Shown: positions 4,815 through 14,775 of the stretch, piece after piece
How the letters are laid out: each line of letters begins with the position of its first letter
Position numbering within the stretch: position 1 is the first letter of the stretch
Made by a program: the position numbers and the translations under genes
Notes under the pieces: model-generated
Databases searched by the model: none
What the model saw: only the letters and a program-made list of their open reading frames with translations
Told to the model about the DNA's origin: nothing
Virus record (IMG/VR): IMGVR_UViG_3300044998_000061
Location: 1 to 21,309 of that record
Length of the DNA: 21,309 nucleotides
Source of the DNA: a virus
Direction: 5' to 3' (one strand)

Positions 4815-6283
4815 TGGCAGACGACTATACGCCGGCCACGCGGTCCTCGGCCTATAACGCAATGCTGCCGGCGTGGCAGAAGATCGACGCGATCCTGGCT
4901 GGTGCCGAGGCTGTGCGCGCGGGTGGGGTGCTCTACCTTCCCAAGTACGATGGCGAGACGAAAGCAGAATACGAGCGGCGCCGGATGTACGCGCCATGGC
5001 GGCCTGAGTTTGAGGACGCGCTTCGCAATCTGGCATCCCGGCCGTTCCAGAAGGACGTGACCCTGTCCGGTAGCGTCTCGCAGCGGATCAAGGACATCGC
5101 CGAGGACATCGACGGGCAGGGGAATAACCTCACGCAGTTCGCCGCGGCGGTGTTCAAAGCAGGGCTCGCCCGCGGCTTCCACGCGATCCTGGTGGACTAC
5201 CCCCCGATTGCCCCCGGTGCGACACTGGCGGATGAGCGTGCATCAGGCGCAAGACCCTATTGGGTCCACGTTCCATGCACGGAACTGATTGCACTTTACA
5301 CCGAGTTCGTCAACGGCCGCGAGGTCATCACCCACGCCCGCCTGTACGAGACGACAATCGTCCGCAAGGGCTACACCGAGGACATCGTCGAAAGGGTCCG
5401 CGAGTTCAATCCCGGCGAGTGGATCACATGGAAGCGTCAGACCGGCGCCGACAACGTGACCACATGGACTGAAGAGGGCCGCGGGACGCTCAACCGGAAC
5501 GGAAACGGCTCTATCCCGCTGGTGATCTTCTATGCCGGCGAACGCAATGGCCCTTTGGTCAAGGCCCCGCTCGATAATGTCGCGGAAGTCCAGCTTGAGC
5601 TTTACCGCGCCCTGTCCCGCAAGGACGAGGTGATGACCTATGCCGGGAGCCCGATGCTTTCGGCCAACGGCATGGCAAAGCCCCCGGAAGGCGAGACGAT
5701 CATCACCGGCCCGAAGCGCATTCTCTTCGCCCCGCCCGGCGGGGATGGTAACTCCCCATCGTGGGATTTTATCCAGCCGAACGCCGCGAACATCAAGGAA
5801 GTCCGCGAAGACATCGCGGCAATCGTTGACGACCTTCGCCGCCTTGCCATGCAGCCTATGGTCAAGGGCACGGGAAACCCCACAGCTACCGGCCGGGCCA
5901 TCGACGCGGCACGCTCTCATTCTGCTGTGCAGCAATGGGCGCTCTCGCTCAAGGACGCGCTGGAAGCGGCGTTCGTGATGACCTGCGAATGGCTTGGCGA
6001 GCAGCCGAACGTCGAGGTTACTGTTTTCACCGACTTTCAGGCTGTGCCCTATGAGCCGGAAACGCTGCGGGCTCTCAACACGGCCCGCGCGAACAAGGAT
6101 CTGTCGCAGCGCACCTATTGGGAGAACCTGCGGCGCCTTAACGTGCTGTCGTCCGACTTCGACCCGGACGCAGAGGAAGAGGCGCTCGCGGCAGAGTTTG
6201 AGGGGCTGGAAAGCGAAGAGCCGATCGATCCTCGCACCGGGGCGCCGCTCGTCCCCGTCGTTGAGCCAGAGCTGGTCGCGTGA
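4814..6283 (+). CDS. Portal protein, DUF4055 type
   Basis: A 489-residue protein placed directly after the large terminase, as expected for the dodecameric portal through which DNA enters the head. Recognisable segments include YLPKYDGETKAEYERR near the N-terminus, the YAPWRPEFEDALRNLASRPF block, GFHAILVDYP, IPLVIFYAGERNG, and a long C-terminal helix region (IAAIVDDLRRLAMQPM ... AALE). This pattern is that of the DUF4055 phage family, which serves as portal. The ATG at 4814 overlaps the terL stop and has GAGG a few bases upstream; a TTG three bases earlier is less likely. The acidic C-terminus (DPDAEEEALAAEFEGLE) is unstructured-looking. Portal role rests on family plus position. Confidence 0.87.
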   Translation: MADDYTPATRSSAYNAMLPAWQKIDAILAGAEAVRAGGVLYLPKYDGETKAEYERRRMYAPWRPEFEDALRNLASRPFQKDVTLSGSVSQRIKDIAEDIDGQGNNLTQFAAAVFKAGLARGFHAILVDYPPIAPGATLADERASGARPYWVHVPCTELIALYTEFVNGREVITHARLYETTIVRKGYTEDIVERVREFNPGEWITWKRQTGADNVTTWTEEGRGTLNRNGNGSIPLVIFYAGERNGPLVKAPLDNVAEVQLELYRALSRKDEVMTYAGSPMLSANGMAKPPEGETIITGPKRILFAPPGGDGNSPSWDFIQPNAANIKEVREDIAAIVDDLRRLAMQPMVKGTGNPTATGRAIDAARSHSAVQQWALSLKDALEAAFVMTCEWLGEQPNVEVTVFTDFQAVPYEPETLRALNTARANKDLSQRTYWENLRRLNVLSSDFDPDAEEEALAAEFEGLESEEPIDPRTGAPLVPVVEPELVA

Positions 6284-6804
6284 TCCACGATACGGCCTTC
6301 ATCCACCCCAAGGCGCATGTTGAAGGGGCCACGATAGGGGCACGTTCCAAAGTCTGGCAGTTCGCCAGTGTGATCCGCGGGACGGTCCTCGGGGAGGACT
6401 GCCAGGTCGGGGCAGCCGCAAATCTCGACGGGCCTGTATTTGGGGACCGCTGCATCATCAGCCCTGGCGTGATAATGGGGCCAGGTTTCGTGGTCGGCAA
6501 TGACGTGTTCATCGGGCCGAATGTGACTGTCTGCAACGACGTGTGGCCGGCGGTCCATAAGCAGGGCTTTGACCTCGACGGATTCCGGAACGGCTTCGTC
6601 ACGGTCCTTATCAAGGACGGGGCGGCCATCGGAGCTAACGCTGTCATCCTCCCTGGTGTCGTCGTCGGCGGGGGTGCGACTGTCGCCGCGGGCAGCGTCG
6701 TCAGCGCCAATGTTCCTGATGGGGGGCTTTGGACCCGCAAGGGGGCCGCGATCCCCTCCAGCGCGGTTTGTAAGTCTGACCGAATGCGGGCAGTATCATG
6801 GTGA
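6280..6804 (+). CDS. Left-handed beta-helix (hexapeptide repeat) sugar acyltransferase, WlbB-like
   Basis: A 174-residue protein built of hexapeptide repeats, the hallmark of left-handed beta-helix acyltransferases that move acetyl or similar groups from CoA or ACP to an amino sugar. Repeats such as AHVEGA TIGARS, SVIRGT VLGEDC, GPVFGDRC, FVVGNDVFIGPN and AAIGANAVILPGVVVG are visible along the whole length, with an insert loop (CNDVWPAVHKQGFDLDGFRN) and the typical end VVSANVPDGGL. It most resembles the WlbB/nucleotide-sugar N-acyltransferase branch. The GTG start overlaps the portal stop by 4 bp. Such a gene is not a virion building block. It heads a three-gene cassette with a glycosyltransferase and a Rossmann-like protein; modification of a capsid or host-surface glycan is inferred. 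Confidence 0.85.
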   Translation: MIHDTAFIHPKAHVEGATIGARSKVWQFASVIRGTVLGEDCQVGAAANLDGPVFGDRCIISPGVIMGPGFVVGNDVFIGPNVTVCNDVWPAVHKQGFDLDGFRNGFVTVLIKDGAAIGANAVILPGVVVGGGATVAAGSVVSANVPDGGLWTRKGAAIPSSAVCKSDRMRAVSW

Positions 6805-7409
6805 CTTTCGCTTGCTGCCTGTGGGACCCGAACCGCTCATCTTTTCCGTTCTCGTGCTGCTACAATGAGACGTGGGTAGATCGCTTGTTTCGGGGCTTTG
6901 CCCGAAATACCACGCACCCCTTCCGCTTCGTGGTCTTCACCGACCGCAAGCGCGAGTTCGCACAGCGGATTGACCAGATACCGCTTTCGGCCTCTGCGCC
7001 TGACTATTCGTCCTGCATCGAGCCATTCAGCATCAACGGTCCCCTGGTCGTGGCCGGGCTTGATACCGTCATCACCGGCAATATCGACGCGCTCGTTGAC
7101 TATTGCCATACCTCCGACCGCATCGCGCTGCCGCGCGACCCCTACCAGCCCGAAATCGCCTGCAACGGCGTCTCGCTCGTCCCGGCCGGCCTCACCTCCA
7201 TCCACAAACTGCACCGGGGCGAAAACGACATGGAGTGGCTGCGGAAGTTTCCGCACAACTTCATCGACGACCTCTTTCCGGGGCAGGTGGTCTCATACAA
7301 GGGCAGAGTGAGAGACAGCGGGCTTGGTGACGCCAGGGTCGTCTATTTCCACGGGGAAGAGAAACCCCATCAGATCAGCGCCCCATGGCTCGCCCGACAC
7401 TGGCGCTAG
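6798..7409 (+). CDS. Small GT-A-like glycosyltransferase
   Basis: A 203-residue protein that looks like a compact GT-A glycosyltransferase (GT8-like). Near the N-terminus HPFRFVVFTD resembles the nucleotide-binding strand. The centre has VAGLDTVITGNIDALVDY, corresponding to the 'LDxDtvi..di..l' metal-binding region, but the first aspartate of the DxD motif is replaced (GLD), so metal binding or activity may be altered. CNGVSLVPAG and the C-terminal VVYFHGEEKPHQIS, with a histidine in the usual 'FhG..KPW' position, support the assignment. It overlaps the acyltransferase gene by 7 bp and the following gene by 25 bp, so the three are co-translated. Donor and acceptor sugars are unknown. Confidence 0.72.
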   Translation: MVTFACCLWDPNRSSFPFSCCYNETWVDRLFRGFARNTTHPFRFVVFTDRKREFAQRIDQIPLSASAPDYSSCIEPFSINGPLVVAGLDTVITGNIDALVDYCHTSDRIALPRDPYQPEIACNGVSLVPAGLTSIHKLHRGENDMEWLRKFPHNFIDDLFPGQVVSYKGRVRDSGLGDARVVYFHGEEKPHQISAPWLARHWR

Positions 7410-7921
7410 TCCTCGGTGGCGCGGCGTGTGTCTGGGATGACATCGCTGCGGCGCTCGACCTCGCAGAACCTGATTACGTCTTCGCCTGCAACGATATCGG
7501 AACCCGCTGGCCTCATCGCCTCGACGGGTGGGTCACTCTCCACCCCGAAAAGATGGTCGGGTGGCGCAAAGAAAGAAAGGCCAACGGCTTCACCTCGGCC
7601 CTCGTCCACGTTGGGAACGAGATCGCGCCAGGGGTCGATCGGGTCGTTGATTATCGCTTTCCGAGCATGGGGAGTTCGGGGTCTTCAGGGCTCTATGCTG
7701 CCAAGGTTGCGATGGAGTTGGCTGACCGCATCGTCCTGTGCGGCGTGCCAATGCAAGCCCGCGAGGCTCATTTCTTTGACGCGGCCCAGTGGGCAGAGTT
7801 CGGATCGTTCACTCAGGGGTGGCAAGACGCCATGCCCTACATCAAGGACCGCGTCCGCTCCATGAGTGGGTGGACCAAGGAATTGCTTGGGGCTCCGTCC
7901 CCGCAATGGCTGGCCGGGTGA
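7385..7921 (+). CDS. Rossmann-like protein of glycan cassette (DUF115/sialyltransferase-like), unknown activity
   Basis: A 178-residue protein beginning with a nucleotide-binding-type strand and glycine turn (LALVLGGAACVWDD). It contains VFACNDIG, WVTLHPEKM, and a distinctive GSSGSSGLYAAKVAMEL followed by ADRIVLCGVPM. A glycine/serine turn before a helix with '(G/C)xSG..A...A' and a following hydrophobic strand with 'GxP/D' is seen in DUF115 and related sialyltransferase-like Rossmann proteins. HFFD and WTKELLGAP mark the C-terminus. The 25-bp overlap with the glycosyltransferase gene, and no ribosome-binding gap, tie it to the sugar cassette. I do not recognise the exact family; a nucleotide-sugar or CMP-sugar binding role is an inference only. 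Confidence 0.5.
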   Translation: MARPTLALVLGGAACVWDDIAAALDLAEPDYVFACNDIGTRWPHRLDGWVTLHPEKMVGWRKERKANGFTSALVHVGNEIAPGVDRVVDYRFPSMGSSGSSGLYAAKVAMELADRIVLCGVPMQAREAHFFDAAQWAEFGSFTQGWQDAMPYIKDRVRSMSGWTKELLGAPSPQWLAG

Positions 7922-7979: not shown

Positions 7980-8732
7980 ATGCTAAAGCTGACGGTAGAT
8001 AGCCTCGATGCCATCGATGAGCCCCTGCGTTCTCTCTATGAGGAGAACGAAGGCAAGTTCCGCCTGAAGGTTGACGGTGTGGAGGACACATCGGGATTGC
8101 GTTCCGCGCTCGAAAAGGAGCGCAAGGCGGCGCGCGACCTCGAAAAGCGGGTCAAGAAGTGGGAAGCCCTCGGCAAGTCCGAAGAGGAAATCCAGGCGCT
8201 TCTTTCCGCTGCCGAACAGGCCGAGCACGAGAAGGCCAGCAAGGCCGGGGAGTGGGAAAAGCTCCGCGCCCAGATGAACGAAAAGCACGAGGCGGCTCTT
8301 CGTGCCGAGGCTGACAAGTCCACCAAGATGCGGGCCACCCTGGAACGCTATCTGGTCGATGCAGCCGCAACCACTGCAATCGCAGCCGCCAAGGGCGTCC
8401 CCGAACTCCTCCTGCCGCATGTCCAGCGGCATGTGAAGGTGGTTGAGGAAGACGGCGATTTTGTCGCCCGTGTGGTCGATGCGAAGGGTGATCCTCGCGT
8501 CAATTCCAAGGGCGAGCACATGACCATTTCGGACCTCGTTGGCGAAATGCGCCAGTCCGAAGTGTTCGGCCGGGCCTTTGAAAGCTCGGGCAATGCCGGC
8601 AGCGGGAAGCAGCCGGGGAACGGAGCCGGGGGAGCCGGCGCAACTCGCAAGTCCGACTTCAAGTCGGAGAAGGACCGGGCGGCCTACGTCGAGAAACACG
8701 GCGTCGAGGCTTACCGCAACCTTCCAAACTGA
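7980..8732 (+). CDS. Phage scaffolding protein
   Basis: A 250-residue protein immediately upstream of the major capsid gene, where scaffolds are normally encoded. It is highly charged and helical: residues about 40-115 form a long coiled coil (LEKERKAARDLEKRVKKWEALGK and on), followed by a helical segment (RATLERYLVDAAATTAIAAAKGVPELLLPHV), a Gly-rich linker (GNGAGGAGATRKSD) and a short charged C-terminus (KDRAAYVEKHGVEAYRNLPN) that may contact the capsid protein. These features fit GP20-type scaffolds that template the prohead and are then lost. Fifty-eight bp separate it from the sugar cassette, the first real gap after the portal. Confidence 0.82.
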   Translation: MLKLTVDSLDAIDEPLRSLYEENEGKFRLKVDGVEDTSGLRSALEKERKAARDLEKRVKKWEALGKSEEEIQALLSAAEQAEHEKASKAGEWEKLRAQMNEKHEAALRAEADKSTKMRATLERYLVDAAATTAIAAAKGVPELLLPHVQRHVKVVEEDGDFVARVVDAKGDPRVNSKGEHMTISDLVGEMRQSEVFGRAFESSGNAGSGKQPGNGAGGAGATRKSDFKSEKDRAAYVEKHGVEAYRNLPN

Positions 8733-8774: not shown

Positions 8775-9755
8775 ATGGCCGATTACCTTGCCTCGAATAT
8801 GAAGATCTACCAGGAGTACATGAAGACCCGCGCGGCTGAAACGCTTCAGCAGCAGGCGGATGCATTCAATGCGGCGGTCAACAACGCCATCATCCTGTCC
8901 ACCGCCGAGAAGGCCGGCGACTACGAGTACGAGAGCTTCTTCAAGAGCATCTCCGGACTCGTCTCCCGCCGCGATACGACCTCGGTGTCTGCCGCGACGA
9001 AGCTGTCGATGGAGCAGGCCGAGTTCGCCCGCGTCAAGCTGAACCGCAAGATCGGCCCCGTCGATATGGCGCGTGATGCTTTCCGCAAGGCTTTCGCCCG
9101 GTATTCGGAGGCTGAGTTCTCCGGCATCCTCGGCGGGCAGGTCGCGGTGGCACAGCAGCTCGACATGCTCAACTCGGTTCTGCTTGCGACCCGAGCTGCG
9201 CTCGTCACCGCGTCTTCGGGCGCGATGATGTACACAGTTCCCTCGTCTGGCACGATCACCACGACTTCGCTCGTGGATGCTCTCGCCAAGATGGGCGACC
9301 GATCGGATCGTGTCGTGGCCTGGGTCATGCACTCCAAGGTGTACTTCAACCTGGTGAAGGAGCAGATCACGCAGAAGATCGACGGCGTGTCGAACTTCAA
9401 CGTCCAGACGGGCACGCCGATCACACTGAACCGCCCGGTGATTGTGACGGACAGTGCAAGCCTTACTGCGGGTTCACCGCTCGACTACTATACGCTTGGC
9501 CTCGTCTCCAATGCGGCCATGGCGGAGGTGACCGAGACCAACGATATCGTCGTTGACGATGTGACCGGTCTCGAAAATCTGATCACCCGTATGCAGGGCG
9601 AGTTCGCCTACAACGTGGGCGTCAAGGGCTTCCGTTACGACGTGGAGAACGGCGGCGCCAACCCGAACGCCACGGCGCTCGGCACCGGCACCAACTGGGA
9701 CAAGGTCGCGACTGACAACAAGTCGCTGGCCGGCGTGGTCCTGAAGAGCCGTTGA
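8775..9755 (+). CDS. Major capsid protein
   Basis: A 326-residue protein after the scaffold, with a strong AAGGA ribosome-binding site at about 8761-8765, as expected for the most abundant virion protein. The N-terminal region is helical (YQEYMKTRAAETLQQQADAFNAAV), the middle shows capsid-like segments (KIGPVDMARDAF, MYTVPSSGTITTTSLVDALAKMGDRSDRV with VAWVMHSKVYFNLVKEQI), followed by RPVIVTDSA and a C-terminal GEFAYNVGVKGFRYD. This is the pattern of a family of HK97-fold-like coat proteins in which a domain with 'W.mHs..y..L' is common. No maturation protease is encoded next to it. A terminator follows directly. Confidence 0.85.
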   Translation: MADYLASNMKIYQEYMKTRAAETLQQQADAFNAAVNNAIILSTAEKAGDYEYESFFKSISGLVSRRDTTSVSAATKLSMEQAEFARVKLNRKIGPVDMARDAFRKAFARYSEAEFSGILGGQVAVAQQLDMLNSVLLATRAALVTASSGAMMYTVPSSGTITTTSLVDALAKMGDRSDRVVAWVMHSKVYFNLVKEQITQKIDGVSNFNVQTGTPITLNRPVIVTDSASLTAGSPLDYYTLGLVSNAAMAEVTETNDIVVDDVTGLENLITRMQGEFAYNVGVKGFRYDVENGGANPNATALGTGTNWDKVATDNKSLAGVVLKSR

Positions 9756-10178: not shown

Positions 10179-10694
10179 ATGGCTCTCAGCGTTGAGGATG
10201 GCACCGGCGACATTGCGAGCGATGCCTATGCGTCGGTGTCCACGGTCGCGGCCTATGCGGTGGCTCGCGGCAAGGTGTTCCCTTCGTCACCCGCTGCGCC
10301 CGCTGAGGCTGCCATCCGCATCGCCACATCATGGATCGACGCCACCTATCGGGGCCGGTTCCCCGGCAGGCGCCTCAACGGTCGCGAACAAGCTCTCGAA
10401 TGGCCGCGCTCCGGTGCGACCGACACCAACGGCGAAGAGGTTGCCTCGGATGAGGTGCCGCAGGAGATCGTCAACGCCGTCTGTGAGGCCGCTATCCGTG
10501 AGTTTGCCAAGCCCGGCACCCTTGCGCCGGACCTGAAGCGCGGTGGCGCGATCAAGTCCGTAAAGGCTGGCAGCGTGCAGGTGGACTACATGGCCGGCGC
10601 GTCTGCCGAGACGACGTTCAAGGCGATCGACCAAGCGCTTTCGTCTCTTCTGCCTGCCCGTTCGGCCTATTCCGTGCTTGCCGTGAGGGGTTGA
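10179..10694 (+). CDS. Head-tail connector, DnaT-like family
   Basis: A 171-residue protein that matches the family annotated as 'putative DnaT-like ssDNA-binding protein', which structurally corresponds to gp6/adaptor-type head-tail connectors. Seen features: an opening DAYASVSTVAAYAVARG, a helix of aligned Ala residues with ATSWIDATYRGRFPG, QALEWPRSGA, and EVPQEIVNAVCEAAIREFAKPG, then KSVKAGSVQVDY and a terminal helix. The adaptor ring binds below the portal. It starts 2 bp after the preceding stop and its own stop overlaps the next ATG (TGATG). The connector role is from family and location. Confidence 0.75.
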   Translation: MALSVEDGTGDIASDAYASVSTVAAYAVARGKVFPSSPAAPAEAAIRIATSWIDATYRGRFPGRRLNGREQALEWPRSGATDTNGEEVASDEVPQEIVNAVCEAAIREFAKPGTLAPDLKRGGAIKSVKAGSVQVDYMAGASAETTFKAIDQALSSLLPARSAYSVLAVRG

Positions 10695-11065
10695 TGAGCA
10701 TCCTCGACGACCTGCCCGACACTATCGGCGGCGCGCTCGCAGACACGTTCCGCGATGCCACGCTGACGAAGACCACCACGACGCCCGCGGCGAACCCGTG
10801 GGACTCGCCGACGACCTCGACGGCATCCTACACCTGCAAGGCCCTTCGCGACACGTTCGGCGCCTATTGGCTGTCTGGCGGGCTCGTGGACGCCGAGGAC
10901 GTGAAGGTGCTGATCTTGGCCTCCACGCTTTCCGTCGCGCCTGAAGCCGGCGACCGCATCACGATCGGGTCGGAGATGTGGACGATTGTTCCGGCGGGAA
11001 GCGGCAAGCCCGCGGTGGCAACCGATCCGGCGAACGCGGTCTGGGAACTCAGGGCACGCAAATGA
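10694..11065 (+). CDS. Putative head-completion / head-tail joining protein
   Basis: A 123-residue protein beginning MSILDDLPDTIGGALADTF, with a Thr-rich stretch and a beta-rich core (SYTCKALRDTFGAYW, DVKVLILASTLSVAPEAGDRITIG, MWTIVPAG, WELRARK). The 'pD.ItigG.. W.i..' kind of pattern is typical of stopper or head-closure proteins that seal the portal after packaging. Its place between the adaptor and neck genes fits. GAGGGG precedes the ATG, and a TGATG overlap couples it to the connector gene. Family not firmly recognised. Confidence 0.6.
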   Translation: MSILDDLPDTIGGALADTFRDATLTKTTTTPAANPWDSPTTSTASYTCKALRDTFGAYWLSGGLVDAEDVKVLILASTLSVAPEAGDRITIGSEMWTIVPAGSGKPAVATDPANAVWELRARK

Positions 11066-11508
11066 CCACGATCGCATATCGCGACGGCATCATGGCATCG
11101 GATAGCGGCTCGTGGGTAGGCGGGGCGTTAATTTCGTGGGCTCGCAAGTTGGCGGTCGGGCCGGACGGCACGCTCTACGGTGCCACCGGCAATGCGCCCG
11201 AAGCTACGGCATTCCTGCATTGGGTTGATATGGGCTGCGAAGGCGACCCGCCGAAGGCCGAGGCGCTGCCTGATAGCGGCAACTCGTTTCTTGTGCTCGC
11301 GGCCCGCCCGGCGGGGCATATCGAACTCATCGGCGCTCGCGGTATTGAACGCTACATGGCGCCGTATTTCGCGCTGGGGGCTGGGGCGGCAGTGGCATAC
11401 GGCGCGCTGTTCATGGGCGCGACCGCGGAACAGGCAATCGAGGCCGCAAAAGAGCACGGGGATGGTGCCCACGGCCCCGTGCAAAGCGTTCGGAGCTCGT
11501 TCGCCTGA
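11062..11508 (+). CDS. Proteasome/HslV-like Ntn hydrolase
   Basis: A 148-residue protein that starts MTTIAYRDGIMASDSG, the same arrangement as the mature N-terminus of HslV and proteasome beta subunits. After Met removal the catalytic Thr1 would be exposed, with Asp13 and Lys28 (in ARKLAV) in plausible places for the Thr/Asp/Lys set. A following strand has YGATGNAPEATAFLHWV, comparable to the 'Gfag..ad...l' region, and the C-terminal half has AYGALFMGATAEQAIEAAKEH. No propeptide is present. Small phage proteins of this type exist among virion gene clusters, but their substrate is unknown. It overlaps the previous gene by 4 bp (ATGA). The longer frame starting upstream at 10978 is not used, since the conserved Thr would be internal. 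Confidence 0.78.
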   Translation: MTTIAYRDGIMASDSGSWVGGALISWARKLAVGPDGTLYGATGNAPEATAFLHWVDMGCEGDPPKAEALPDSGNSFLVLAARPAGHIELIGARGIERYMAPYFALGAGAAVAYGALFMGATAEQAIEAAKEHGDGAHGPVQSVRSSFA

Positions 11509-11693
11509 TGGCAACCGAGGACGAAGACCCGCGCCTTGACACCCTCGCTGACGCCGCGGTCATTCACCATGTGAGGTCGCGTTCCATTCTGTGCCTTGAG
11601 GCCGCTATATCCTGCCTCCTCGATGGCTACGACGCCAGGGAGGTCGCGGAAATCCTCCGGCAGCACGCCGAACACCTGGAAGACCATGGCTAG
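11508..11693 (+). CDS. 61-aa acidic helical protein, unknown
   Basis: A small, acidic, helix-rich protein (MATEDEDPRLDTLADAA ... EVAEILRQHAEHLED). Its ATG shares bases with the stop of the Ntn hydrolase gene (TGATG) and its end overlaps the minor head gene by 8 bp, so it is part of the translated operon. No family is recognised. Such small proteins next to an Ntn hydrolase could be an adaptor or merely a linker gene. Confidence 0.65.
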   Translation: MATEDEDPRLDTLADAAVIHHVRSRSILCLEAAISCLLDGYDAREVAEILRQHAEHLEDHG

Positions 11694-12708
11694 GCGCGGC
11701 AACAGGAACACGCTTGAGGCGCTTCTAGATCGCCTTGAGCCGAACACCAGAAAGGCATTCGAGGATGTCATCTACGACATCCGCAGGAATATCGACCTTC
11801 AGACCCTCACAGCGCGTCTAGAGGCCCGCGATATTGAGGGCGCCATCCGCGCTCTCAATATCGACGATGCCGCATTTAGGCCGCTAGAGGCTGCCCTGGT
11901 TGAGGCGTTCAACACTGGTGGACTCGCCACAGTCAACCGTATGCCTCCGCTTCGTCTTGAGACCGGGGAGCGAGCAGTCATCAGGTTTGACGCCCGCAAC
12001 CTAGTGGGCGAGGGCATCCTTCGCCAGCAGTCAGGAACTCTCATCCGAGAGATCAAGGCGGATGCCTTGTTCGGTGCCCGCTCGTATCTTTCTGACGCTC
12101 TTTCGAGAGGGGAAAACCCAACTACCACTGCGCTCGATCTGGCAGGCCGGATCAATCGCGCCAGTGGCAGGCGAGAGGGTGGTTTGATCGGGTTGACCAG
12201 TTCTCAGGTGGACACAGCTCGCCGGTTCGCTCTGGAATTGGCAACCGGGGATGCGAATGCGCTCTCCCGGAAACTCCGAGACCCCAGGTTTGATCGCACG
12301 ATCCGCAATGCGATTAAAGAAGGTAGGGGGCTCACCTCTGCCGAAGCGGTGCCGATGTATCGCGCATATCTCAACCGAGCACTTCGGTGGCGTGCAGAAA
12401 CGATCGCGCGGACGGAGACCATGACGGCCCTCAGCCAAGCGCAGGATGAGGCTTTTCGGCAAAACATTGAGGCTGGCAAGATTGACCCGTCTGCCGTGAC
12501 ATCTACTTGGTATGCGACGGGCGACAAACGAACCCGCGATACACACCGCGAAATGAGCGGGCAGAAGGTTGCATGGGGCGAACTGTTCATCTCTCCCTCC
12601 GGTGCCCGTCTCCGTTATCCGGGAGACCCGCGCGCACCCGCTTCCGAGCGGATAAATTGCCGCTGCGCCCGGTCGATTGACGTGGATTACCTAAAGCAGT
12701 TCCGCTGA
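11686..12708 (+). CDS. Minor head protein, SPP1 gp7 / Mu F-like
   Basis: A 340-residue protein of the Phage_Mu_F family, ejected or internal head proteins that bind the portal. The diagnostic C-terminal part is present: RAETIARTETMTALSQAQDEAF near residues 236-257, then TWYATGDKRTRDTHREMSGQ, followed by RYPGDPRAPASERINCRCA. The 'ARTE ... W....D.RtR..H..m.g' and 'iNCRC' signatures are clear. The start at 11686 is inside the end of the preceding gene; the open frame extends to 11596 but without a better start. It lies far from the portal, whereas this gene often follows it. Its base composition is lower (about 55% G+C by eye) than that of neighbouring virion genes. Confidence 0.85.
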   Translation: MARRGNRNTLEALLDRLEPNTRKAFEDVIYDIRRNIDLQTLTARLEARDIEGAIRALNIDDAAFRPLEAALVEAFNTGGLATVNRMPPLRLETGERAVIRFDARNLVGEGILRQQSGTLIREIKADALFGARSYLSDALSRGENPTTTALDLAGRINRASGRREGGLIGLTSSQVDTARRFALELATGDANALSRKLRDPRFDRTIRNAIKEGRGLTSAEAVPMYRAYLNRALRWRAETIARTETMTALSQAQDEAFRQNIEAGKIDPSAVTSTWYATGDKRTRDTHREMSGQKVAWGELFISPSGARLRYPGDPRAPASERINCRCARSIDVDYLKQFR

Positions 12709-14067: not shown

Positions 14068-14775
14068 ATGGGCGAGAGCACGACGGCCGGCACCAAGGTC
14101 TATATCGGCACCACCGCATCGAACGGCGTCACCGACACCTACACCGAGATCAAGGAAGTCACCTCCATCTCGGCCTATGGCAAGACCTTTGCCGAAGTGA
14201 CGCACACCCCCTTGGCGACCCGTGGCGTGCGCAAGCACAAGGGCTCCTTCAACGACGGCAACCTCGAACTGGAGATGGCCGACGATCCGGGCGATCCCGG
14301 CCAGATCGCCCTTGAGGCGGCGCTGGAGACGGACTTCGATTACAACATCAAGATCGAGCAGAACGACGCCGTGGCTCCGGCCTCCGCGACCGTCACGATC
14401 TCCGTCGCCACGCCCGGCGTCGTCACCGACACGGCCCATGGTCTGGCGGCGAATACCCCAGTGGCCTTCACGACAACCGGCGCGCTGCCGACCGGCCTGG
14501 TGGCCGGCACCACCTACTATGTCAAGACGGTCCTCACCGCCGACACCTACTCCGTCTCGGCCACGGCCGGCGGCGCAGCCATCAACACATCCTCGACGCA
14601 GTCTGGCGTCCACACCCGCACCACCGTCCCGGCGCCGACGACGAAGTTCATGAAGGCCAAGGTCATGTCCTTCCCGAACGCTGCCGCCACTGTGGATGCA
14701 GTCCAGGGGCGCACCTGCACCCTCGGCGTCAAGTCGGGGTCCATCTCCACCGTGAAGCGCATCCCGCTGATCTGA
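14068..14775 (+). CDS. Major tail tube protein with inserted FCCH-like domain
   Basis: A 235-residue protein with a perfect AGGAGG ribosome-binding site, in line with high expression. Residues 1-105 are tube-like (GTKVYIGTTASNGVTDTYTEIKEVTSIS, GKTFAEVTHTPLAT, NDGNLELEMADDPGD), and residues 190-235 complete the tube fold (KFMKAKVMSFPNAAATVDAVQGRTCTLGVKSG). Between them, about 107-185, lies an extra beta domain (TDTAHGLAANTPVAFTTTGALPTGL ... GTTYYVKTV ... YSVSATAGGAAI) of the kind often labelled ubiquitin-activating E1 FCCH-like in phage proteins. An inserted domain would project from the tube surface. Tube identity rests on order and sequence. Confidence 0.82.
   Translation: MGESTTAGTKVYIGTTASNGVTDTYTEIKEVTSISAYGKTFAEVTHTPLATRGVRKHKGSFNDGNLELEMADDPGDPGQIALEAALETDFDYNIKIEQNDAVAPASATVTISVATPGVVTDTAHGLAANTPVAFTTTGALPTGLVAGTTYYVKTVLTADTYSVSATAGGAAINTSSTQSGVHTRTTVPAPTTKFMKAKVMSFPNAAATVDAVQGRTCTLGVKSGSISTVKRIPLI

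Follow-up and report, generated by a model that had tools for sequence, protein, structure and literature searches.

A PPH-family proteasome homologue among the head-tail connector genes of a virus contig, from a branch with an apparently altered active site

What does a proteasome-like enzyme do among the head-tail connector genes of a phage, and does it process virion proteins or has it been repurposed? We followed up this question in the window, by which we mean the whole 21,309-nucleotide stretch analysed here, a 21.3-kb virus contig with an ordinary siphophage head-to-tail cluster in the order terminase, portal, scaffold, major capsid, Ad1, Hc1, PPH, 61-aa gene, MuF-like, neck, tail terminator and tail proteins (Table 1). 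The 148-residue open frame that an earlier note had singled out is a real gene on the plus strand, and its ATG overlaps the stop codon of the upstream Hc1 gene (ATGA). The note had placed it within the head-tail connector genes, and this agrees with Ad1 and Hc1 upstream and the MuF-like gene downstream.

Table 1. The PPH gene of the window and the head and connector genes around it
Feature	Position	Strand	Remarks
Head scaffolding protein, separate	7980..8732	+	PHROG 206; no Pfam domain found
Major capsid protein, Gp13-like	8775..9755	+	PF20036; PHROG 247
Head-tail adaptor Ad1	10179..10694	+	PHROG 477, E 6.3e-41; Pfam DnaT_2; recurrent PPH neighbour in branch
Head closure Hc1	10691..11065	+	PHROG 161, E 1.5e-11; overlaps PPH start
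PPH-family proteasome-like Ntn hydrolase	11062..11508	+	148 aa from ATG; PHROG 1040, fold model
61-aa gene between PPH and MuF	11508..11693	+	PHROG 27758, E 3.1e-8
Mu gpF-like head morphogenesis protein (MuF-like)	11680..12708	+	PHROG 3517, E 5.5e-99

The protein matched PHROG 1040, labelled 'peptidase HslV family' (E 4.7e-21, residues 1-144). Since this profile also gave matches in 9 of 14 control genomes, E. coli for example, it takes in HslV and proteasome relatives as well. Pfam and NCBIfam searches up to E 1 returned no families for the protein, which is thus not HslV proper. A phmmer search of PDB with the single window protein gave weak, unrelated matches only, and with a profile of 33 sequences, proteasome and HslV chains were recovered. 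The AlphaFold2 model (single chain, 12-sequence alignment) had a pLDDT of 92.7; Foldseek grouped it with BPH, HslV and proteasome subunits, with BPH as the best solved fold (E 8.1e-8), VIA-align gave HslV as the best solved fold (Z 17.3, rmsd 2.7, 137 residues), and the BFVD matches were phage proteins, the first of them named 'Proteasome subunit beta'. The proteasome/HslV-like Ntn fold suspected earlier is thus borne out by the predicted single-chain model, both structure searches and PHROG 1040. The model has one helix in the first pair (45-56), followed by helices at 109-117 and 122-132, and with its 148 residues and predicted absence of helix H2 the protein agrees with the PPH description of about 140 residues and no H2. 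We therefore assign it to the published phage family PPH (Fuchs, Alva and Lupas 2021; PHROG 1040). Passages of PMC8665760 describe PPH as proteins of about 140 residues without helix H2 from tailed phages and their hosts, with no AAA+ partner found and no function known, and report no genomic context suggestive of function. We found no report of a function in the open-licence PubMed Central literature since the 2021 description, and the word 'proteasome' is absent from the main texts of PMC10386132 and PMC7047879.

Matches to the window protein itself are rare, as tblastn found 13 of 50,697 records in the phage collection, all weak (best E 3e-4), while a relative from our first scan used as the query matched 487 phage records. 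An alignment of 41 PPH and four host HslV proteins placed the window protein in a nine-member branch (support 0.997), which grew to 11 distinct proteins when a later sample was added (support 1.0). A profile of this branch (E 1e-8) had matches in 5 of 397, 6 of 397 and 4 of 394 host genomes, three samples that overlap and that include the genomes from which the PPH loci came.

For each of the 11 branch members, a terminase, portal, capsid, connector or tail tubular gene is no more than about three genes away. In seven of them (the window, L020, L122 from Aminobacter, L123 and L124 from Methylobacterium, L135 and L140) PPH adjoins Ad1 or Hc1, in one of three arrangements: PPH-Ad1, Ad1-PPH or Ad1-Hc1-PPH. 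L140 has the order of the window, Ad1-Hc1-PPH-MuF; both L135 and L140 were found by the branch-built profile after the neighbour pattern had been noted, and both fit it. Elsewhere in the branch, PPH is immediately upstream of a tail tubular gene (L026), between terminase and portal (L125, and likewise L022, which is placed by its likeness to L125, its own terminase and portal not having been scanned), or about two genes downstream of the terminase (L028, where the next downstream frames have no family and the terminase is the sole basis of placement). In the two terminase-PPH-portal loci, L022 (7408-7884) and L125 (8465-8911), the next gene encodes a small PHROG 10057 protein labelled DNA methyltransferase. 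At L149, PPH directly adjoins MuF, leaving no space for the 61-aa gene. A Clp/HslU-type ATPase (PF07724, AAA_2) was found in none of 27 records, the window and 26 others that carry PPH, several of them fragments, in line with the earlier remark that no HslU or Clp gene was visible.

We tentatively favor, as the reading that may well be right, that the window gene is an optional phage proteasome homologue in the connector cluster, acting as an accessory threonine enzyme on a few specific proteins. The tie of the branch to the head-tail connector neighborhood would narrow the candidate substrates to a small set. It is quite possible, if somewhat more doubtful to us, that the gene is late-operon cargo (a moron) acting on host or superinfecting-phage proteins, and that it stands in the connector slot merely because insertions are tolerated there. 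The slot between Hc1 and MuF is indeed variable in relatives: the 27.8-kb record L104 (capsid 79%, scaffold 65% and portal 50%) runs Ad1-Hc1-MuF and is empty at the PPH site, L054 (capsid 74%) keeps the same order without PPH and has a 74-aa gene at that site, and L044 has other frames in the slot. Additionally, transferase genes like those at 6280-7409 of the window occupy a different late slot in L052, and other PPH members lie in accessory regions of large phages. Because unrelated cargo genes (hexapeptide transferase, glycosyltransferase) occur in the same region, position alone is a weak argument. However, the placement of all 11 branch members near packaging, head or connector genes, with seven next to Ad1 or Hc1, is tighter than loose cargo requires.

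Two further features of the window were observed. Between portal and scaffold (6280-7921) it carries a hexapeptide transferase, a glycosyltransferase and one further gene; L104 has the same three-gene set and L052 has the first two between capsid and PPH, and these differing placements indicate that cargo genes of the region move about. The middle part (about 100-190) of the major tail protein (14068-14775) matches PHROGs other than tail tube and is possibly an inserted domain.

Outside the branch, we examined 14 named phages among the 487 matching records. phiM5 has the order terminase-PPH-portal, three further phages have PPH two to three genes from terminase or capsid, and the other ten have it in accessory, lysis or unannotated regions, including regions with NAD-salvage genes, with RNR and thioredoxin, or adjoining holin and lysozyme. 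An HslV-family enzyme is also named in a phage lysis module in a passage of PMC11841896. Since PPH is distant from structural genes in many other phages, a role in assembly does not extend to the whole family. In Roseobacter phage DSS3P8 and Caulobacter phage C1 (L119, L121), PPH shares its region with NAD-salvage genes, lying three genes upstream of a NadM-type gene and Nampt in the former and eight genes downstream of a ribosylnicotinamide kinase and a PnuC-like transporter in the latter. Another locus, L030 (6974-7471, same contig as L014), encodes a PPH without a start codon at Thr1, and an ATG after a Shine-Dalgarno-like GGAGG gives it a nine-residue leader that ends in Gly right before Thr1 and resembles a self-cleaved proteasome propeptide. 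Propeptides are said, in a passage of PMC8665760, to occur only in proteasome beta and HslV subunits.

Alignment of the active site confirmed part of what had been proposed for it. T2, D14 and K29 of the window protein align with Thr1, Asp17 and Lys33 of HslV, so the first triad of an active HslV-type enzyme is present as the earlier note had it, but the positions of the proteasome's second triad, Ser129, Asp166 and Ser169, hold A107, G133 and A136. Thr1, Asp17 and Lys33 are invariant in the branch (11 of 11), although conservation of the motif IAYRDGIM was partly selected for because it served as the search seed, and the seeds of the genome scan spanned T2, T3 and D14. The three residues are likewise present in all 32 non-branch PPHs of the first set, one of which has Ser1, and are kept again in the later set. 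Second-triad residues are scarce in the branch, with Ser129 in one of 11, Asp166 in none and Ser or Thr at 169 in two, and every member has a histidine immediately ahead of position 166; one of the six window peptides that first seeded the viral scan spans this histidine, and a scan with AYRDGIM as its sole seed retrieved the same 18 contigs. In comparison, of 39 distinct non-branch PPHs (32 plus 7 later ones), 36 have Ser129, 34 have Asp166 and all have Ser, Thr or Cys at 169. These counts leave out L113 and L114 (weak, likely other subfamilies), L115 (a fragment), L032, L116 and L129 (long C-terminal extensions), the duplicates L136, L141 and L146 (of L122, L123 and L125) and L139 (of L138), and several loci of the viral scans that were near-identical or from one contig.

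The later set weakened a clean split between branch and rest. Among its seven non-branch proteins, two lack Ser129 (L137, L144) and three lack Asp166 (L137, L142, L144), with Ser, Thr or Cys at 169 in all seven. As three of the five non-branch PPHs without Asp166 come from this set, such loss is commoner outside the branch than the first sample implied; L137, L142 and L144, all from host genomes, are cases of partial second-triad loss outside the branch. The four host HslV sequences all have Ser at 129, Thr at 169 and Cys at 166. Asp166 is thus dispensable in the HslV lineage, and the unusual losses in the window's branch are those at 129 and 169; the view that loss of Asp166 alone makes a dead enzyme was dropped once the aligned host HslV showed Cys there. 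We conclude from the alignment that the branch has kept the core active site and, as judged by its residues, has lost the proteasome's second triad, which gives some support to the earlier suggestion of a repurposed enzyme. The gene is not decaying in at least one part of the branch, since three closely related pairs, each from the L022 subgroup, had dN/dS values of about 0.02-0.06.

According to passages of PMC4792962, the Thr1 amine of the proteasome forms bonds with Ser129, Asp166 and Ser169, and efficient proteolysis requires a second triad to which Ser129 and Asp166 belong. The loss of these residues could mean that the branch protein is a structural or regulatory subunit with weak or no catalysis, serving as a scaffold or adaptor in connector assembly. 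We regard this as unlikely. The branch counts at 129, 166 and 169 fit it, as does the finding, from the same passages, that Ala at proteasome position 166 prevents autolysis and catalysis and that D166N strongly lowers activity. However, the invariance of Thr1, Asp17 and Lys33 in the branch and the Cys at 166 of host HslV itself both speak against it.

The earlier note had also connected PPH with the lack of a recognizable prohead protease. The window belongs to a capsid lineage with a Gp13-like major capsid protein (PF20036) and a separate scaffolding protein, for which a capsid-protein scan gave 60 loci and a portal-based scan one, L104; we searched 32 of these 61 records, chosen not at random but mainly as long ones and near relatives. 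S78, S14 and S49 proteases were indeed missing from the window, and they were found in none of the 33 lineage records, many of them fragments. PHROG 1040 matches occurred in 11 of the 32 relatives, of which G025 and G030 seem to belong to other subfamilies, and not in the other 21, among which single absences are soft because many records are fragments or possibly incomplete. Six of the 11 matches are a short way downstream of the capsid gene, ahead of the connector genes or within their cluster. No match was found anywhere in the L054 (62.7 kb) or L090 (52.2 kb) records. The capsid N-termini agree among near relatives, PPH-less ones included, and no PPH-linked extra segment in scaffold, capsid, Ad1, Hc1, MuF or Ne1 was consistent across relatives, in a comparison where start codons are uncertain and where the PPH carriers for capsid and scaffold are the window and L148 only. 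Ad1 is longer in L149 (195 aa), but also in the PPH-less L090 (191 aa). The proposed link therefore did not hold, and it is highly improbable that PPH is the essential prohead protease of the window phage in place of S78, S14 or S49 enzymes: its position beside the head genes and the absence of another head protease from the window would suit that role, but its predicted fold is that of the proteasome and not of those enzymes, 21 of 32 same-capsid relatives (many fragments) show neither kind of match, and L104 and L054 share the head module and capsid N-terminus but have no PPH.

The preferred reading, an accessory threonine enzyme acting on a few proteins, has computational support in the fold, the intact first triad, the loss of the second triad in the branch, the lack of a detected unfoldase partner and the optional presence of the gene, and there is purifying selection in one subgroup of the branch. 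By its gene position, PPH would be expressed late in infection. Given the Met-Thr start, methionine aminopeptidase would expose Thr1, whose hydroxyl, deprotonated by Lys33/Asp17, would attack a peptide bond of one specific protein, or of a few, with no HslU-type unfolding step, during the joining of heads and tails, and the acyl intermediate could then pass to water (cleavage) or to an amine. Against action in assembly, two virion analyses, of other PPH members, do not report PPH: in the phiM5 record, portal, scaffold and capsid carry a mark of detection in the particle and PPH carries none, and a passage of PMC4936722 gives four head proteins detected in the phiAH14a virion, PPH not among them. 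Both of these PPHs have an intact second triad. Against it also stands the absence of a consistent removable segment in the head and connector proteins of PPH-carrying relatives.

By analogy, the branch might even have turned from hydrolase to acyl transferase, cross-linking or tagging a head-tail connector protein through a Thr1-substrate amide, an idea to which we give very little weight. Without Ser129 and Asp166 the Thr1 amine would stay uncharged and be a better nucleophile, as passages of PMC4792962 argue for D166N, and this could allow a Thr1-substrate amide as in connectase. If true, virion assembly would involve a protein ligase derived from the proteasome. The branch also raises the chemical question of whether Thr1/Asp17/Lys33 is functional without a second triad. 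Since named, sequenced strains of Aminobacter, Methylobacterium and Ciceribacter carry members of the branch, both substrates and chemistry are testable.

Among known systems, connectase, an archaeal protein ligase, is proteasome-like and bonds with its substrate through Thr1 (passages of PMC11745163); the window model has no helix before residue 45 and so does not contain connectase's insertion of two helices between strands 3 and 4. BPH, the betaproteobacterial proteasome homologue, was the top Foldseek match, but is longer, as the first four chains listed have 183-187 residues. HslV (ClpQ) of HslUV shares the fold, Thr1/Asp17/Lys33 and the lack of Asp166. Unlike HslV, the window protein falls about 26 residues short of the 174-residue E. 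coli chain, has no H2 helix in its model, lacks equivalents of Ser129 and Thr169, has no HslU-type ATPase found with it, and gives no match to the NCBIfam HslV model TIGR03692, which passes its cut-off in four of four host genomes; NCBIfam, length and the absent H2 rule out membership in HslUV. The closest agreement is with PPH as described in passages of PMC8665760, in its roughly 140 residues, Thr1/Asp17/Lys33, lack of helix H2, occurrence in tailed phages and prophages, and lack of a detected AAA+ partner. Unlike PPH as published there, the window's branch lacks second-triad residues and lies close to head and connector genes; the abstract, passages and section 3.3 of PMC8665760 do not discuss the second triad. 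The PPH phage family was thus already known, and what stands out here is a branch near connector genes whose active site is changed and yet conserved.
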